Shown one piece after another: positions 947 through 47,215 of a DNA stretch of 64,000 nt (its first letter is position 1; each line of letters starts with the position of its first letter). Location: positions 2,542,001-2,606,000 of the forward strand of contig LT907983.1 of NCBI GenBank assembly GCA_900230115.1. The letters are read 5' to 3'. The stretch is from Spirosomataceae bacterium TFI 002 (GTDB lineage Bacteria; Bacteroidota; Bacteroidia; Cytophagales; Spirosomataceae). Below the pieces are notes generated by a model that made no database searches, was not told where the DNA came from, and worked only from the letters and a program-made list of their open reading frames with translations. A program made the position numbers and the translations under genes.

Positions 947-3313
947 TTAATAAATGATTTGAAATTCGGGTAACATTATAACTGCCCAAAACAAGTCTTG
1001 AATTTGAGACTCCGAAGGGTTTTTCCCTAAAGTAGAAAGAGCAATTTTTACTTCTTGTGGGCTTGGGTTCCTCCCTAGTGCCTCTTGATATAATGTTTTT
1101 ATTAGTTGTTCGGTATTTGGTTGTATGGTTTTCCACTTTTGAGCACCTATTTTTAAGGTACTATCTAACCTTGCACCATTTGTAAATTCTAGTGCTTGCA
1201 ATAAACTTGACTCTGTTGGTCTTGATGTGGTAACAATCTCTCGATTTGGTCTTCCCAGGGCAGTTAAAAATGAGTTATTTGATACCAATGAAGCCCTTGT
1301 AATGTAGCTTCCAGTGGGTTGATAACCAGCAAGTGCAATAGGGTCATATGAATAATCGCTAGCATTGAAAATTGGAAAAATTACCTTGCTTACTACATCT
1401 GATAACTGTTCGGCAGAAAGCCTCCTTCTTAACATACCATTGAATTGATAGCTATCTTTTAAAACCAGTGCTGGTTCTGAAGAATTTACACTTTCCATTT
1501 GATACGTATCTGAGGTTGTGATGAGAAAAAGTAACTTTTTGAGGTCGTAATCATTCTCAACAAAATTCACAGCCAACCAATCTAATAAGTCCTGACTCCA
1601 TGGCTTATTGTCCATTTCATCAACAGTTCCTACTATTCCTCGTCCCATTACTTGAGCCCACACCCTGTTAACAATGGTTCGGTACATTCTGCCATTTGAA
1701 GGCTGAACAAGTGCTTCTGCGAGTTGGCTTAATTTTTCACTTTTTGTTCCAGTACTGTCAATATTGCCTAGGCTTGGCCAAAGAAGTCTGGTATCTGCGA
1801 ATTTGCCAATTGGTTTTTCACATCGGGCAATTTCTAACCTTTCTTCTGCAAATATATTGGCAAAAGCATAGGCATCTTCAAGTTTCCAATCACTTACAAA
1901 ACTATCGTGACAGGAAGCACACTTTAGGTTCAAACCCAATAGAACCTGCCCCACATTTTGTGCAGCTTGCATTTCTGTTCTTTGACTTGCATTTACTGTT
2001 CCTCGCCACTTTATACCTTCAATAAAGCCCTTAGATTCTTCATTTGGATTCAAAAGCTCCTTTACAAACTGATTGTAAGGTTTATTCTTTTGCAATGATG
2101 TATAAAGCCAATGGTTAATGTTAAACCTTCCCTTGGTAATGTAGCCAGTACCTGTATAGTCATTGCGTAGAGCATCGTTCCAAAAAGATAGCCAATGTTG
2201 TGCATAGGGGTCATTTTGGGAAAGAAGTTTATCTACAATTCTTTTTCTTTTATCAGGGTTAGAGTCATTTTCAAAATCTTTGATTTCTTGAAATGAAGGA
2301 GTTAAACCATGAATGTCTAGGTATACACGACGCAAGTATGTTTTGTCATCAACTTTCTTTTTCCACGTAATTTCGTTTTTTGTAAAGTAGTCATTAACCC
2401 ATAGGTCAATTGGGTTTTCGAATGAGCCTTTTGGTAAAGAAGGGTTACGTGGAGCAAGTTCTGCCCTTGGAAATAGGGATTCTTTGCCAAAGTCGTCAGG
2501 CCAAAAAGCACCGTTGGCAATCCAATATTCAATAATTTCAATTTCAGATTTGGATAGTGACTTGCCTTTTGAAGGCATGGATTCTTTATGGTCGACAGGG
2601 AGAGTTATTCTCCTATATATTTCGCTTTGCTTTGCATTTCCGGGTATAATGATTTTACCATTTTTCCCACCAGCAAAAATAAACTCCTTTTCGTCAAGCC
2701 TAAGATCTCCCTTTTGTTTTGCCTCACCGTGACATTTGTAACAATTATGTGCAAAAATAGTCCGTACCTGACTGGCAAGTTTTACTTGGTCTGTATCTGG
2801 TGTTGTTAGAGCTAAACTACTTGTATCTTCACTCTTATTCCAGGGAAAAACTTCTGTCAAATAAGTATCTCCATGTGTTAGCATTGCTCCCCAATGACCA
2901 GTGACTATTGTTCCAATGGTTGCAATACCCAATAATAGGTTTTTTGCAGAATCAAGGCCTTGTTTGTTGATTGTCAAATAAAGCAGAACAAGAGAAACTA
3001 CGGCTAAGAAAATCCCAGAATAACGGTGAAAATCTAGTAGTTCGCCACTGTATTCATCTTGCCAAGCTAAAATTAGTCCTAAGCCAACAGAAAGAATTGC
3101 ACTGCTCGTACCAACAATTATTAAGAAATTGATGATCTGTTCGCCATTGTTGATTTTACGTTGGAAGAGCTTTAAAAACCCGGCAATAACAAGAAGGCTT
3201 ACAGGGAAATGGACAAATAGAGGGTGTAATCTCCCTAAAAATTGCAGTATCCAAATGGAATTAGACTCCAAAAGCAAATGATTGCTAGCGGCAAGGAGAG
3301 TTTCTGAAATCAC
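947..3313 (-). CDS. PSD1 cytochrome c protein (DUF1549/DUF1553) with membrane N-terminus
   Basis: A 788-residue protein. Residues about 25-150 form a membrane region of several helices with HPLFVHFP near 30-37, as in DUF2231-like domains. A c-type haem motif CYKCH lies at 191-195, in a planctomycete-type cytochrome c domain. DUF1549 follows from about 300 to 500 and contains a second CxxCH (465-469), and DUF1553 runs from about 515 to 770. The family is common in Planctomycetes and Bacteroidota and is usually paired with DUF1501 genes. The haems imply an extracytoplasmic redox role, but no reaction is established. The ATG at 3313 gives a complete protein, and the stop lies one base before the DUF1501 start. 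Confidence 0.9.
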   Translation of the reverse strand: MISETLLAASNHLLLESNSIWILQFLGRLHPLFVHFPVSLLVIAGFLKLFQRKINNGEQIINFLIIVGTSSAILSVGLGLILAWQDEYSGELLDFHRYSGIFLAVVSLVLLYLTINKQGLDSAKNLLLGIATIGTIVTGHWGAMLTHGDTYLTEVFPWNKSEDTSSLALTTPDTDQVKLASQVRTIFAHNCYKCHGEAKQKGDLRLDEKEFIFAGGKNGKIIIPGNAKQSEIYRRITLPVDHKESMPSKGKSLSKSEIEIIEYWIANGAFWPDDFGKESLFPRAELAPRNPSLPKGSFENPIDLWVNDYFTKNEITWKKKVDDKTYLRRVYLDIHGLTPSFQEIKDFENDSNPDKRKRIVDKLLSQNDPYAQHWLSFWNDALRNDYTGTGYITKGRFNINHWLYTSLQKNKPYNQFVKELLNPNEESKGFIEGIKWRGTVNASQRTEMQAAQNVGQVLLGLNLKCASCHDSFVSDWKLEDAYAFANIFAEERLEIARCEKPIGKFADTRLLWPSLGNIDSTGTKSEKLSQLAEALVQPSNGRMYRTIVNRVWAQVMGRGIVGTVDEMDNKPWSQDLLDWLAVNFVENDYDLKKLLFLITTSDTYQMESVNSSEPALVLKDSYQFNGMLRRRLSAEQLSDVVSKVIFPIFNASDYSYDPIALAGYQPTGSYITRASLVSNNSFLTALGRPNREIVTTSRPTESSLLQALEFTNGARLDSTLKIGAQKWKTIQPNTEQLIKTLYQEALGRNPSPQEVKIALSTLGKNPSESQIQDLFWAVIMLPEFQIIY

Positions 3314-3520
3314 AAAAAATGTTTCTTAGAGTTGAATAATTACCTTAAAGCTAGTAAAAAAGAGTAAGACTATGCTTTGCAACTGTTCTATACTGTATAT
3401 GTGATTTATTCGCATTAAATGGATAGAAACAGAAGGGAGGATTCACTAAAGTCATTTATGCTAATCTAATTCACCATAAAAATGGCTATACTTGTAGTCG
3501 AAATTTAACCTATTGACTAA

Positions 3521-4344
3521 TTGACCCTTAGAAAGAAAATACACGAAATTCTTGAGATAAAGTTTCAACGAAAACGTGGAATAAGCTTCGTCGTAAATAT
3601 TGCATTATCGATTCTCATTTTTCTAAACACTGTTGCCATAATTTTGCATACTGTTCCTAGTATAGGAAAACGTTTTGATAGGTTTTTTCTCGATTTTGAA
3701 GTGTTTTCGGTTACCGTTTTCTCCATCGAGTTTGCTTTGAGGGTGTGGTCATGTGTGGAAAGAGCAGAGTACAAACATCCAATTGTGGGTAGACTTAAGT
3801 TTATCTTTTCGCCTTGGGGTGTTATAGATTTTTTGGCAATTTTCCCATTTTACTTTTCGCTTTTCAGTACGGATCTGGGGTTTGTGCGAATACTCAGGCT
3901 GCTAAGAATTTTACGCCTATTTAGGGTGAGTAGGTACTTTCATGCTTTGAGGGTAATTCAAAACGTAATTAAAGCCAAAAAAGAAGAGCTATTACTAAGC
4001 ATGTCCTTTATAATCTTTCTTTTGCTCATATCATCAAGTCTTGTTTTTTATATTGAACATGATGCACAGCCGCAGGCATTTTCTTCTATTCCTGAGTCGC
4101 TATGGTGGGGTGTAAATGCAATGACTACAGTGGGGTATGGTGATATGCACCCAATCACGCCTTTTGGAAAAGTTCTTGGGGAATAATGGCAATTTTGGGT
4201 GTTTCTATTTTTGCTTTACCTACAGGTATTTTGGCCAGTGGTTTTGCAGAACAAATTCGAGGAACCCGACATGATTCTCAAAAAGTACATTGCCCACATT
4301 GCGATAGAACCTTTTATTTGGCCGATAGGCACAAACATAATTGA
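3521..4344 (+). pseudogene. Kv-type voltage-gated potassium channel, single frameshift in S6
   Basis: A six-helix ion-channel subunit. S1-S3 lie in residues about 20-115. S4 has regularly spaced arginines (RILRLLRILRLFRVSR, 123-138), and the selectivity filter TTVGYGD is at 202-208. The first frame stops at 4184-4186, right after GKVLG. The next frame continues the expected S6 (MAILGVSIFALPTG from 4187) and a tail with CPHC and HKH, a possible zinc-binding end, to 4344. Adding one G to the GGGG run near 4178-4181 restores a 274-residue protein. A stop codon directly precedes the TTG at 3521, so TTG is the forced start. Either the gene is inactive, since truncation falls in the pore-lining helix, or one base was missed in sequencing. 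Confidence 0.88.
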
Positions 4345-43222: not shown

Positions 43223-43238
43223 TTTAGGCGAGTCTAAA
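43223..43238. promoter_or_regulatory. Putative DtxR-family operator upstream of the iron operon
   Basis: TTTAGGC-GA-GTCTAAA, a 16-bp palindrome with one mismatch between arms, 59 bp before the ATG of the DtxR-FeoA gene. The form resembles the TTAGGC-type half-sites of DtxR/MntR-family metal regulators. Autoregulation by the first gene is inferred from position. Confidence 0.5.
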
Positions 43239-43296
43239 CGTATTCTGAAAAATATTGTTTTAATTGTAGAGAAAACGCAATAATTGTGCAGTAGAA

Positions 43297-44319
43297 ATGA
43301 GTAATTACAATCCAGTTTGGGCCCTAGCTATTTTTTCAGGCTTATCTGTTTTATTATATTTTATTTTTAGACCTGGAAACGGTTGGTTTTGGCTTGTTAA
43401 ATCTGGCTCGCAGTTTAGCCAAAAGGTTTTGATTGAGGACATTCTAAAGTTTTTATATCACAGCGAAAATGAAAACAGACCAGTCAACATAAATGATATC
43501 TCTCGTACAATTAAGGACCCTGACAAAGATATTGTAGAGTCGTTAAAGGAAATGGCAACTATTGACCTAATAAGTCTTTCAGGAAATCATGTGAAACTGA
43601 CCAAATCGGGGAGTGATTATGCTTTGAGAATGGTTCGTGCCCATAGGTTGTGGGAGAAGTTTCTTGCAGAAAAAACTGGATATGCAGAAGCTGACTGGCA
43701 CCATATTGCAGAAAAAAAGGAACACGAATTGTCCCACGATGAAACAGAAAAGCTAGCAGAAAGGCTTGGATTTCCTCAGTTTGACCCCCATGGTGACCCC
43801 ATTCCTACCACGACAGGAAAGGTAGCTCCTATGCCAGGTAAAACACTTTCGGACTTAGAAGTTGGCACAATTGGGCGTATTGTTCATATCAAGGATAAGC
43901 CAGATGTTGTATATCGCCAGATTTTAGCCGAGAATATTCACATAGGCTCACATATCAGAATTGTAGAAAAGGATACAGAAAGAATTGTTTTCCACTCAGA
44001 AGGAGAAGCATTTATTCTTGCTCCTATTGTTGCCAGTAACATTACTGTCAATGTATTAAAAAAGGAAATTTATTTTGAAGAAGATATTGTTAGGCTTAGT
44101 TCGCTTGGAACAGATGAAAAAGCAACAATTGTGGGCATATCACGTGAAATACGAGGGGAAGCCAGAAGGCGACTGCTAGACCTTGGTTTTGTAAAAGGTG
44201 CCGAAGTCGGGCTTGAATTGGAAAACCCTCTTGGAGACCCAAAAGCGTTTTTGATCAAAGGAACAAACATTGCTTTGAGGAACAATCAAGCGTCAAAAAT
44301 TTTAATTAAAAAAGCATAA
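43297..44319 (+). CDS. Membrane-tethered DtxR-like regulator fused to FeoA domain
   Basis: 340 residues. A hydrophobic helix (about 6-25) leads to a winged helix (about 40-105, [20 protein letters not shown]) and a DtxR-type dimerisation and metal domain (about 112-170) with AHRLWEKF and [16 protein letters not shown], whose His/Glu pattern matches metal ligands. C-terminal FeoA/SH3-like domains follow; the last is clear, [15 protein letters not shown] and [15 protein letters not shown]. Normal DtxR proteins are soluble. It starts an operon with split FeoB, 4 bp before the next gene, so it probably senses iron and modulates FeoB directly, gene expression, or both. Confidence 0.85.
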
Positions 44320-44323
44320 TCAA

Positions 44324-45091
44324 ATGGAATTAAAGCCAAATAGTGCTTGCGAAGCCTGCCCCCAGTTTAATGCAAGTGGGCTGAAGAAACTAGGTGTAAA
44401 TACAACCAGTTTTGATTATGTTGTTGCTTTGGCAGGAAATCCTAATACAGGGAAAAGTACGGTTTTTAATGCTTTAACTGGTTTAAAACAGCATACAGGT
44501 AATTGGCCTGGTAAAACGGTAACTCGTGCTGAGGGTGGTTTTGAATATAATGATCAAAAGTTTAAGTTGGTCGACCTTCCAGGTACATATTCTCTACTTT
44601 CTACATCAGAAGATGAAGAGGTAGCTCGTAACTTTTTGTTATTTGGGCAACCAACTGTTACTGTTATTGTAGCGGACGCCAGTAGGTTGGAAAGAAACCT
44701 AAACCTTGTGCTTCAAGTATTAGAAATAACCGATCGAGCTGTTTTATGTCTGAATTTAATGGACGAAGCAGAAAGAAACGATATAGAAATAGACACAAGG
44801 ACACTGGCTCGTGACCTCGGAATACCAGTAGTGGCCACAAGTGCACGTTACCAAAGAGGTATCCCCGAGTTAATTCAAACAATAAGCGAGCTAGCAAATG
44901 GTACAATAGTTTGCAAGCCTCATAAGATTAAGAGTATTCCAAAAAACATAGAGGATGCGGTACAAAAGCTAAGTACTGATATAAAGAAGGAATACCCTTC
45001 AATACCCAATAGCCGCTGGATTGCTCTTAGGCTTTTGGAAGGAGATAGTCATGTCATAGAAATGCTTAGAAATGGAGAGTTTATAAAATGA
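44324..45091 (+). CDS. feoB: FeoB N-terminal G-protein domain (split FeoB)
   Basis: 255 residues, only the cytoplasmic part of the ferrous iron transporter. G1 [11 protein letters not shown]3 DLPGTYS and G4 NLMDEAE are present, with the switch I segment [11 protein letters not shown] short N-terminal extension has a CEACP cysteine pair not usual in FeoB. The permease half is encoded separately and overlaps by 4 bp (ATGA), so this is a genetic split rather than a random frameshift: each half has its own start and both are conserved to the ends. Confidence 0.93.
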
Positions 45092-46503
45092 AAAACGAGA
45101 ATATTGAAAAGCTTATTTCCCTTTCAAATGACCTCCGATGGCAACTAGGTGATGAGTTTCATGATGACCTTACGGAGGGGATTTATGCCGATGCATCAAG
45201 TATCGTTAAAGCCTCAGTGCATAAAAAAGGGGTTGGAGGACAGCTACGGTTTGATGCAAAAATTGATCGAATTATTACTAGTAAAACTTGGGGGTTTCCT
45301 TTAATGTTTTTGGTGCTTTCGGTGGTTTTATGGCTAACGATTATAGGAGCAAATTACCCATCAGCAATGTTGGGCAACTTGCTACTGGAACATGTTCATC
45401 CTTTTCTAAAAAACCTAGGGGTAACTATTGGCCTACCTGAGTGGCTTAATGGCTTTTTAATAGACGGAGTTTATTTAGCTGTTGCATGGGTCATTGCAGT
45501 GATGTTACCTCCAATGGCGATATTCTTCCCATTGTTTACATTATTAGAAGATTTTGGCTACTTACCACGAGTAGCATTTAATCTCGATAACCTTTTCAAA
45601 AGAGCCGGAGCTCATGGAAAGCAAGCTTTAACTATGAGTATGGGTTTTGGTTGTAATGCGGCAGGTGTGGTGGCAACTCGAATAATCGATAGCCCAAGAG
45701 AGCGATTGATAGCGATTATTACAAATAATTTTTCGCTTTGTAATGGTAGGTGGCCAACTCAAATTTTGATTGCAACTATTTTTATTGGAGCAATTGTACC
45801 TCAAGCATTCTCAGGAATTGTGTCACTCGCTGCTGTAATTGGTATCGCTGTATTGGGAATGGGATTTATGTTTTTTACCTCTTGGGCTTTATCAAAAACT
45901 GTTTTAAAAGGAGAAGTTTCAACTTTTGCTTTAGAGCTGCCTCCATTCCGTCCTCCAAGATTTTGGAAAACTATTTATACTTCGCTAATCGATCGTACTT
46001 TGATAGTTTTGTGGAGAGCAATTGTTTTTGCTGCTCCTGCAGGAGCGGTAATTTGGCTTATCTCCAATGTTAGCATCGGAGATCAATCCATTGCAGTTTG
46101 GTCAATTGACTTTATGGAACCCTTTGGCTTTTTGCTTGGTCTAAATGGAGTTATCTTACTGGCTTACATTGTTGCTATTCCAGCCAATGAGATTGTAATT
46201 CCAACAATACTTATGCTAACTGTCTTAACAACCGGGTTAGCGGGAGGTTCTGGAGCAGGGGTTATGTTTGAAGCGGACTCAGCAAGTGCAACAGGTGAAA
46301 TACTGAGGGCTGGAGGTTGGACATTGCTTACTGCAATTAACTTGATGCTTTTTAGTCTTTTGCACAACCCTTGTAGTACCACAATTTATACCATTTATAA
46401 AGAAACGAAATCTCTCAAATGGACTGTAGTAGCTTCTATATTACCAGTTATTATGGGTTTTGTGGTAACATTTGTGGTAGCTCAAGTGTGGAGGTTGTTT
46501 TAG
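45088..46503 (+). CDS. feoB: FeoB C-terminal membrane permease (split FeoB)
   Basis: 471 residues. A cytoplasmic N-terminal stretch (about 1-60) precedes the FeoB core of roughly eight helices with two inverted Gate/nucleoside-recognition domains. Conserved stretches are [34 protein letters not shown] and [15 protein letters not shown], which carry Cys residues proposed to line the iron path. It takes up Fe2+ across the inner membrane together with the separate G-protein. A short hairpin terminator follows. Confidence 0.93.
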
Positions 46504-46546: not shown

Positions 46547-46568
46547 TCCCTAGAATTAGGGATTTTTT
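46547..46568 (+). terminator. Rho-independent terminator after the iron operon
   Basis: Stem TCCCTA (46547-46552) pairing with TAGGGA (46557-46562), loop GAAT, followed by six T. It lies 43 bp past the FeoB permease stop. Confidence 0.75.
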
Positions 46569-46618: not shown

Positions 46619-47215
46619 ATGAAAAAAATCCTATTGCTTCTGATACTAAGCACTTGTTTTACTCACCTTTTTGGGCAACTTACTGTGAGTGGAGCATCTC
46701 ACGGTTCTGTAAACAGTAACTACACCCTAACAACCTCTAGCCCACCGCATTATATTGTAGATGCAGGAACAAATAAATATAGGTACAGCTACCAACAGCA
46801 AGACTTTCACCACTTTTTTTATATCGTTAGAATTAATAATAAATGGACGCTACTGACGGATAGCTATTATACAGATTTTGGAGGTGGGGTTTGGTACTAT
46901 GCACTTAATATAGACCAAAACACGAGTACGGATATTGATCCGCCGTGTACTGGAATTTTTGATTCATACAGTGGGGTCTATCCTAATAGTCAATTAATTG
47001 GGGTTGACAATATTATAATGACAGGAGCCACATGTATAGTTCAACCTGTCACCTCTATGGCATCAATAATTAGCCCTTTTGGAATTAGTTTGCCTCAAAT
47101 GACAACAACACAAATAAATGCACAGGCAAACCCTACTGCCGGCACAGTTGTATGGAATTCAACACTTGCTTGCCTCTATGTATTTAATGGAACAACTTGG
47201 GTTTGTAATAATTAA
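46619..47215 (+). CDS. Secreted hypothetical protein
   Basis: 198 residues. A clear signal peptide (MKKILLLLILSTCFTHLFGQ) is followed by an aromatic-rich region (YRYSYQQQDFHHFFYIV, GGGVWYYALNI) and a threonine/alanine-rich C-terminus (QMTTTQINAQANPTAGTVV) ending in LYVFNGTTWVCNN, similar to the tail region of secreted Bacteroidota proteins with collagen- or tail-fibre-like ends. Cys residues could pair outside the cell. I recognise no family. It overlaps the convergent ABC gene end by 4 bp. Confidence 0.65.
   Translation: MKKILLLLILSTCFTHLFGQLTVSGASHGSVNSNYTLTTSSPPHYIVDAGTNKYRYSYQQQDFHHFFYIVRINNKWTLLTDSYYTDFGGGVWYYALNIDQNTSTDIDPPCTGIFDSYSGVYPNSQLIGVDNIIMTGATCIVQPVTSMASIISPFGISLPQMTTTQINAQANPTAGTVVWNSTLACLYVFNGTTWVCNN

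Follow-up and report, generated by a model that had tools for sequence, protein, structure and literature searches.

What does a DtxR-type metalloregulator do when it is anchored in the membrane, ends in FeoA and is encoded beside a FeoB that is divided between two genes? The question is raised by an operon in a 64,000-nucleotide stretch of Spirosomataceae bacterium TFI 002 (contig LT907983.1, positions 2,542,001 to 2,606,000; hereafter the window), the genome of which is one contig of 5.46 Mb. There, a 16-bp imperfect palindrome is followed by three co-directional open reading frames (ORFs) on the forward strand. They encode a fusion of a transmembrane (TM) helix, DtxR and two FeoA domains (340 amino acids (aa); 43297–44319, +; ORF, Pfam, AlphaFold2), a FeoB G-protein (255 aa; 44324–45091, +; ORF, Pfam FeoB_N) and a FeoB-type permease (471 aa; 45088–46503, +; ORF, Pfam Gate/FeoB_C). 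As an earlier sequence-only reading had described, G-protein and permease are separate genes whose frames share 4 bp (ATGA, 45088–45091). That reading had also proposed that one protein serves as sensor, DNA binder and FeoB partner. Our analysis points to a different division of labour. With slightly better than even confidence, we regard the operon as encoding an importer of the Feo superfamily that is controlled by MntR and probably carries Mn2+ (possibly Mn/Fe), and in which the anchored DtxR–FeoA subunit acts as a metal sensor that gates transport rather than transcription.

Because the fusion is spread over 111 loci and many phyla, we consider it an established family and not a one-off joining. 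The survey of Bacteroidota that had been suggested for it found the fusion in 41 of the 395 genomes of a Bacteroidota draw, window genome included. Among 59 genomes (the window genome and 58 relatives), the full fusion was present in the window genome and in G014, G019 and G021, with 66–74% identity. Closest among the named records listed was Jiulongibacter sediminis (Leadbetterellaceae, Cytophagales; 74% identity). The best 80 loci from named genomes included Arenibacter, Maribacter, Tenacibaculum, Polaribacter, Cyclobacterium and Ancylomarina, as well as bins named Chloroflexota, Verrucomicrobiota, Planctomycetota, Acidobacteriota and Omnitrophota, one Methylomirabilota and one Bacillota. 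The 111 loci used below, taken from lists of limited length, comprise 30 from the Bacteroidota draw, these best 80 and four from the family and window, less three duplicates (L062, L092, L093).

The fusion protein starts with a predicted transmembrane helix (residues 6–24; 43312–43368, +) that was apparent in the AlphaFold2 model and from hydropathy. In support of the proposed membrane tether, a 19-residue hydropathy of at least 1.6 was reached in 107/111 fusion homologues versus 0/65 soluble MntRs. A long helix (residues 30–58; 43384–43470, +), located by alignment and model, leads from the membrane into DtxR helix α1 and carries the ligand E47. The winged helix that follows (residues 59–101; 43471–43599, +; model, Pfam, alignment) has a diverged, acidic recognition helix. 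Its fold was modelled by AlphaFold2 (mean predicted local distance difference test (pLDDT) of 91; helices 65–71 and 76–88, strands 92–95 and 98–101), but the Pfam profile Fe_dep_repress (PF01325) remained silent for the window protein even at E 0.1. The metal-binding and dimerisation domain (residues 102–171; 43600–43809, +), assigned by alignment and by Fe_dep_repr_C (PF02742), matched this profile at 7.2e-25, and so did 111/111 fusions. The C-terminal part is formed by a first SH3/FeoA-type domain (residues about 181–253; 43837–44055, +; Pfam FeoA stretch, AlphaFold2) and a second FeoA domain (residues 265–338; 44089–44310, +; PF04023 at 3.6e-23; FeoA structures, e.g., 2k4y and 7r7b). Membrane helix, winged helix, metal domain and FeoA were hence all recovered as described, by Pfam or by AlphaFold2, except that the FeoA domains are two, not one. 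A Pfam scan gave no ABC-3 (PF00950) match in the window fusion protein, which has only the TM-helix layout in common with YtgCR-type permease–DtxR chains.

Within the DtxR part, the recognition surface is not conserved: judged by sequence, DNA reading appears to have been lost and the metal site kept. The positions E47, H116, E120, H135, E142 and H143 were invariant in 111/111 fusions across phyla, and E139 was present in 91/111. Judged by the alignment, these residues correspond to the known MntR/DtxR ligands, and the proposed metal domain is supported as a retained site. PF01325, in contrast, matched 11/111 fusions versus 66/66 soluble MntRs, although the soluble set was chosen by similarity to the canonical MntR of the window genome, which favours such matches. 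At the 65 loci that hold both proteins, and where species and depth are therefore equal in the comparison, the metal/dimer domain showed a mean pairwise identity of 0.57 in the fusions and 0.56 in the soluble proteins. The corresponding values were 0.23 versus 0.49 for the recognition helix and 0.32 versus 0.47 for the wing. The charge of the recognition helix was –0.95 in the 111 fusions versus +1.03 in the 65 soluble proteins. Between the window and its three family relatives, every recognition helix differs, yet the operator core is the same.

A separate candidate repressor is often close by. In 57/111 loci, the gene immediately ahead of the fusion encodes a soluble MntR (counting one 130-aa piece, L097, and one inside an over-long 865-aa frame, L164), and the two frequently overlap by some bases. 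The soluble MntR of the window genome (221 aa) is encoded away from the operon, at C1:1054350, and PF01325 matches are present in 41/44 fusion genomes. The fusion protein itself is thus probably not the repressor, and the idea of single-protein control, with sensing, DNA binding and FeoB partnership in one chain, is not supported, given the lost conservation of recognition helix and wing and the presence of a soluble regulator. The Arenibacter/Maribacter loci vary: L095, L098 and L109 have a full-length soluble mntR upstream and L097 a short one; no mntR was found adjoining the fusion in L099–L101 and L111, and the box described below still occurs in L100, L101 and L111.

The palindrome, TTTAGGCGAGTCTAAA (43223–43238), is a candidate MntR-type operator with 6/8 matching base pairs. 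The sequence-only reading had it 59 bp upstream; it is where and what was described, but lies 58 bases from the ATG of the fusion gene. Its core, TTTAGN6CTAAA, is conserved across loci. It occurs once in the whole window, against a chance expectation of about 0.0003 per 100 bp, and in 42/111 fusion loci, window included, it was found at most 200 bp ahead of the gene that opens the operon. Dinucleotide shuffles gave a mean of 0.04 loci and a maximum of 1, and the 349,141 bp from the fusion start to 2.5 kb past the fusion end contained 3 sites. Positive loci were 24/57 with a soluble gene first, where both the search and the hit concern the region ahead of that soluble gene, and 18/54 without. 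In fusion-free genomes, too, the core stood no more than 600 bp ahead of soluble mntR in 19/26 loci (counted by eye from printed lists, with no shuffle control), and in 13/14 of the fusion-free loci with MntH as the divergent neighbour of mntR. Since it precedes mntR in genomes that lack the fusion, the palindrome is best read as a putative box of the soluble MntR, and not as an operator of the fusion. The operon shares this operator with mntR/mntH loci and on this feature would belong to the MntR regulon, the binding itself being predicted. Genome-wide enrichment of looser forms did not hold: TTTAGNNNNNNCTAAA was found at 19 places versus 41 for the backward-pattern control, and for TTTAGNCNNNNCTAAA there were 7 strand hits, spread over 4 places, versus 13 strand hits of its backward control. 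The evidential weight of the loose box thus comes from its conservation across loci and not from genome-wide counts.

Which metal would such an importer carry? A strong MntH (E<1e-120) was found in 0/4 fusion genomes of the family versus 29/33 fusion-free ones (p 0.001), in 25 of which it adjoins mntR. Across the phylum draw, with the threshold at E<1e-100, 2/41 fusion genomes and 145/354 others had a strong MntH (p 7e-7, kinship uncorrected). Both thresholds were set after the scores had been seen, and the MntH and adjacency counts were made by eye from printed lists. Four fusion-free genomes of the family lack a strong MntH, and three of these are only 63–82% complete. An informative exception is G348, where mntR, mntH, fusion and feoB follow one another, which speaks for the link of the cassette with MntR and MntH. 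Judged from these distributions, the cassette tends to take the place of MntH in the MntR/MntH slot, and because it occupies this slot, the usual equation of FeoB with iron becomes doubtful. The MntH anticorrelation and the shared box, together with FeoB2 of P. gingivalis, a manganese transporter encoded beside a twin-FeoA MntR (PMC4805248, PMC8749426), make Mn2+ (possibly Mn/Fe) probably the likelier substrate than Fe2+. A doubtful but serious alternative is that the same sensor design serves an Fe2+ importer and that its control by MntR represents Mn/Fe cross-regulation; it overlaps with the manganese reading, and the two are not exclusive. Membership in the FeoB family speaks for iron, as does DR2539, a DtxR-type regulator of MntH that can respond to both metals (PMC3327659), whereas the window genome already has a full-length FeoB and the cassette anticorrelates with MntH, shares its box and has the manganese precedent of P. 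gingivalis. At one locus, the gene between mntR and fusion (L213:5275–7200, –) encodes an Nramp transporter of 641 aa that carries a universal stress protein (Usp) domain at its C-terminus. A C-terminal DtxR-type sensor had been considered for such Nramp proteins of about 630 aa and was dropped, as the one scanned carried the Usp domain.

A parallel came from the search with the window protein, which also matched frames of about 424–501 aa in their C-terminal parts. The six that were opened (L055–L060) consist of an ABC-3 permease fused to DtxR, and a further search supplied its best 30 such proteins (L183–L212). In these 30, H116, E120, H135, E139, E142 and H143 were invariant, and the position of E47 held 27 E and 3 D. 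Like the Feo-type fusion, the ABC-3–DtxR proteins have a P-x-x-G junction (P in 27, G in 30 of the best 30), a long helix and invariant ligands, and lack PF01325 (0/6 opened and 0/30 best proteins matched). Their recognition-helix identity was 0.26 versus 0.60 for the dimer domain. An AlphaFold2 model placed a transmembrane segment at 259–277, a short loop and a helix 283–313 running into α1 (mean pLDDT 85), the counterpart in the fusion model being TM 6–24 and helix 30–58. Where the fusion has a single TM helix, they have a complete ABC-3 permease, and a FeoA tail was present in 1/6 and 0/30. A soluble MntR-like gene lay in the neighbourhood of four of the six opened frames. We tentatively propose, at a little below even confidence, that the unrelated FeoB-type and ABC-3 importers use the same membrane DtxR module, derived from a repressor, as a feedback sensor that has lost operator recognition and kept metal sensing. 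A rigid helix would carry the hinge motion of DtxR into the membrane, and the window operon would encode a manganese-importing FeoB under parallel control by MntR. A tree of 38/111 Feo-fused, 33/65 soluble and 30 ABC-fused sequences, built from 100 columns (a small number for this many sequences), set the Feo-fused (100/96) and the ABC-fused proteins (100/98) each apart from the rest by a single branch, and the soluble ones weakly so (68/53). A recent local joining of MntR with FeoA was therefore discarded in favour of one old family, as the tree suggests. Since the tree is unrooted and the long branches of both fused groups meet, a shared origin of the two is not decidable from it.

What this analysis established is the architecture, the conservation of the ligands, the decayed recognition helix, the existence of a separate soluble repressor, the box in common with mntR loci and the anticorrelation with MntH; MntR binding at the box, manganese specificity, contact with FeoB and feedback inhibition we infer. 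In the mechanism that we propose, the soluble MntR (C1:1054350) would bind the palindrome and set the expression of the operon. Cytosolic metal would occupy the retained MntR-type site between helix α1 (E47) and the dimer domain. In DtxR proteins, metal binding closes a hinge and thereby orients the winged helix for DNA. In the fusion, this hinge motion could pass via the continuous helix 30–58 to the membrane and the permease, because α1 continues towards the membrane helix, and the C-terminal FeoA domain may relay it to the FeoB G-protein. Import would then be slowed when the cytosol is replete with metal; both the transmission and its sign we infer. If true, importers would possess a direct post-translational metal brake that is built from a repressor and acts besides transcriptional control. 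A class of annotated DtxR regulators would not be transcription factors, some 'FeoB iron transporters' would be manganese importers, and the role of FeoA would become testable in a system that ties it to a metal sensor.

The DtxR part could also be a dimeric membrane anchor for FeoA that no longer senses metal. This would explain why the fold was kept while DNA recognition was lost, and it agrees with the Bacteroides FeoAB fusion, in which FeoA acts on the FeoB G-protein and stabilises its GTP-bound state (PMC8980893). We consider such a pure scaffold improbable: six ligand positions are invariant across phyla in every fusion, and six of seven are equally so in the 30 ABC-3–DtxR proteins, where E47 is E or D.

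Several observations weigh against a metal-sensing subunit under separate MntR control. Weak PF01325 similarity persists in 11 fusions; 54/111 loci lack an adjacent soluble gene, some of them (e.g., L143, L152, L170) on stretches that end too early; no PF01325 match was found in the fusion genomes G387, G446 and G105, and the sole match in G271 is weak (1.2e-5, in a 150-aa frame). Control in these genomes must then fall to a different regulator or to the fusion. No strict box was present upstream in 69/111 fusion loci, including 12/12 Verrucomicrobiota and 3/3 Omnitrophota, and the upstream search found none at the mntR locus of the window genome. Exclusion of MntH is incomplete, since G105 and G348 have MntH as well as the fusion (in G348 as mntR-mntH-fusion-feoB in one row); the window genome retains three weaker Nramp paralogues; and, because the genomes are related, the MntH p values overstate the association. 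Finally, two related regulators do bind DNA: PgMntR, a DtxR protein with two FeoA domains from an operon with the manganese transporter FeoB2, binds promoter DNA (PMC4805248), and the YtgR part of a Chlamydia permease–DtxR fusion, which is reported to be cut free, does so as well (PMC5599777).

On the view of the sequence-only reading, the fusion itself would bind the palindrome from the membrane, repress the operon when loaded with metal and also contact FeoB. The modelled winged-helix fold, the conserved box upstream, the binding of the twin-FeoA PgMntR to its own operon promoter (PMC4805248) and the three of 44 fusion genomes without any PF01325 match would all fit such a tethered repressor. 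Yet the recognition helix and wing are decayed and acidic next to a conserved metal domain, the remaining 41/44 genomes have a PF01325 match next door or elsewhere, and the box precedes mntR in fusion-free genomes. Moreover, where a fusion genome has no PF01325 match, no strict box turned up ahead of the fusion either (three genomes; L075, L076, L082), and we hold this explanation to be quite unlikely. Less likely still is release of the cytosolic DtxR–FeoA part from its membrane helix to act on DNA, for which the similar membrane–DtxR layout and the cleavage and Fe2+-dependent DNA binding of YtgR (PMC5599777) are a precedent, given the same decay of the DNA surface, the existence of a soluble repressor and a long continuous helix in the model without an obvious linker to cut.

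The window fusion resembles PgMntR/FeoB2 in its twin C-terminal FeoA, its FeoB-type operon partner and a related Mn/Fe ligand set (PMC4805248). It differs in its TM anchor, decayed recognition helix, separate soluble MntR and split FeoB. For PgMntR, compared here by description, the accessible part of that report gives a predicted DNA-binding domain of residues 13–65 and mentions no membrane helix (PMC4805248). As in YtgC/YtgR, a DtxR module is fused after the membrane portion of a metal importer (PMC5599777); there the permease belongs to the same chain and the DtxR part is reportedly released and represses, whereas the window fusion combines a single TM helix with a FeoA tail and leaves FeoB to proteins of its own. 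Feo/FeoAB (PMC8980893) and the proposed 'Meo' manganese systems (PMC8749426) likewise comprise FeoA, a G-protein and a Gate-type permease. Unlike in Feo, FeoA is fused to a membrane-bound DtxR, FeoB is split in 97/111 loci and the permease motifs differ from those of full-length FeoB. Fold and metal site match the MntR/DtxR repressors (5zr6, SloR, ScaR, IdeR, DtxR), but the fusion has no canonical DNA-recognition helix and adds a membrane anchor and a second FeoA domain. A literature search, which covered few subscription papers, found no title or abstract describing a membrane-anchored DtxR–FeoA protein with split FeoB.

The G-protein matched FeoB_N (PF02421) at 1.4e-60, and its G motifs, including NLxD, were kept in at least 98/100 homologues at each position. 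The permease, on its separate gene, matched Gate (PF07670) at 2e-24 and FeoB_C (PF07664) at 7.9e-12; a search against sequences of solved structures gave no match for it. FeoB was intact in 5 of the 111 loci and not fully visible in 9; the 736-aa frame of L164 was not counted as intact, since it does not carry the G-protein. With PF04023 in the fusion and FeoB mostly divided, the earlier placing of a FeoA part beside a split FeoB was confirmed. At its N-terminus the G-protein has a CxxC pair (C9 and C12; 44348–44359) in 100/100 aligned homologues, a possible metal or redox site; the full-length FeoB of the window genome starts straight at the G domain, without CxxC. Many permease positions kept in 72–74 of 74 homologues differ from that full-length FeoB (GCNAAG, CNGRxPT, IPANEI, HNPC), so that the permease looks like a distinct subfamily.

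Downstream of the operon lie a terminator-like hairpin with a T run (46547–46562, +; consensus match only) and a gene for a 198-aa protein with a signal-like N-terminus (46619–47215), for which no Pfam match was obtained at E 0.1. A tight form of the box, TTTAGRCNNGYCTAAA, was found at 2 places in the genome versus 0.15 expected, with the caveat that the pattern was written after the sites had been seen. These are the window operon and a site just upstream of a TonB-dependent receptor gene; a further scan site at C1:1109310, between type IX secretion-like genes, looked unrelated. The second tight box (L018:3690–3705; C1:1347189) lies 20 bp upstream of the receptor gene (1453–3669, –), whose 738-aa product contains a CNVC...GDIHINGM motif and is a candidate outer-membrane manganese receptor.

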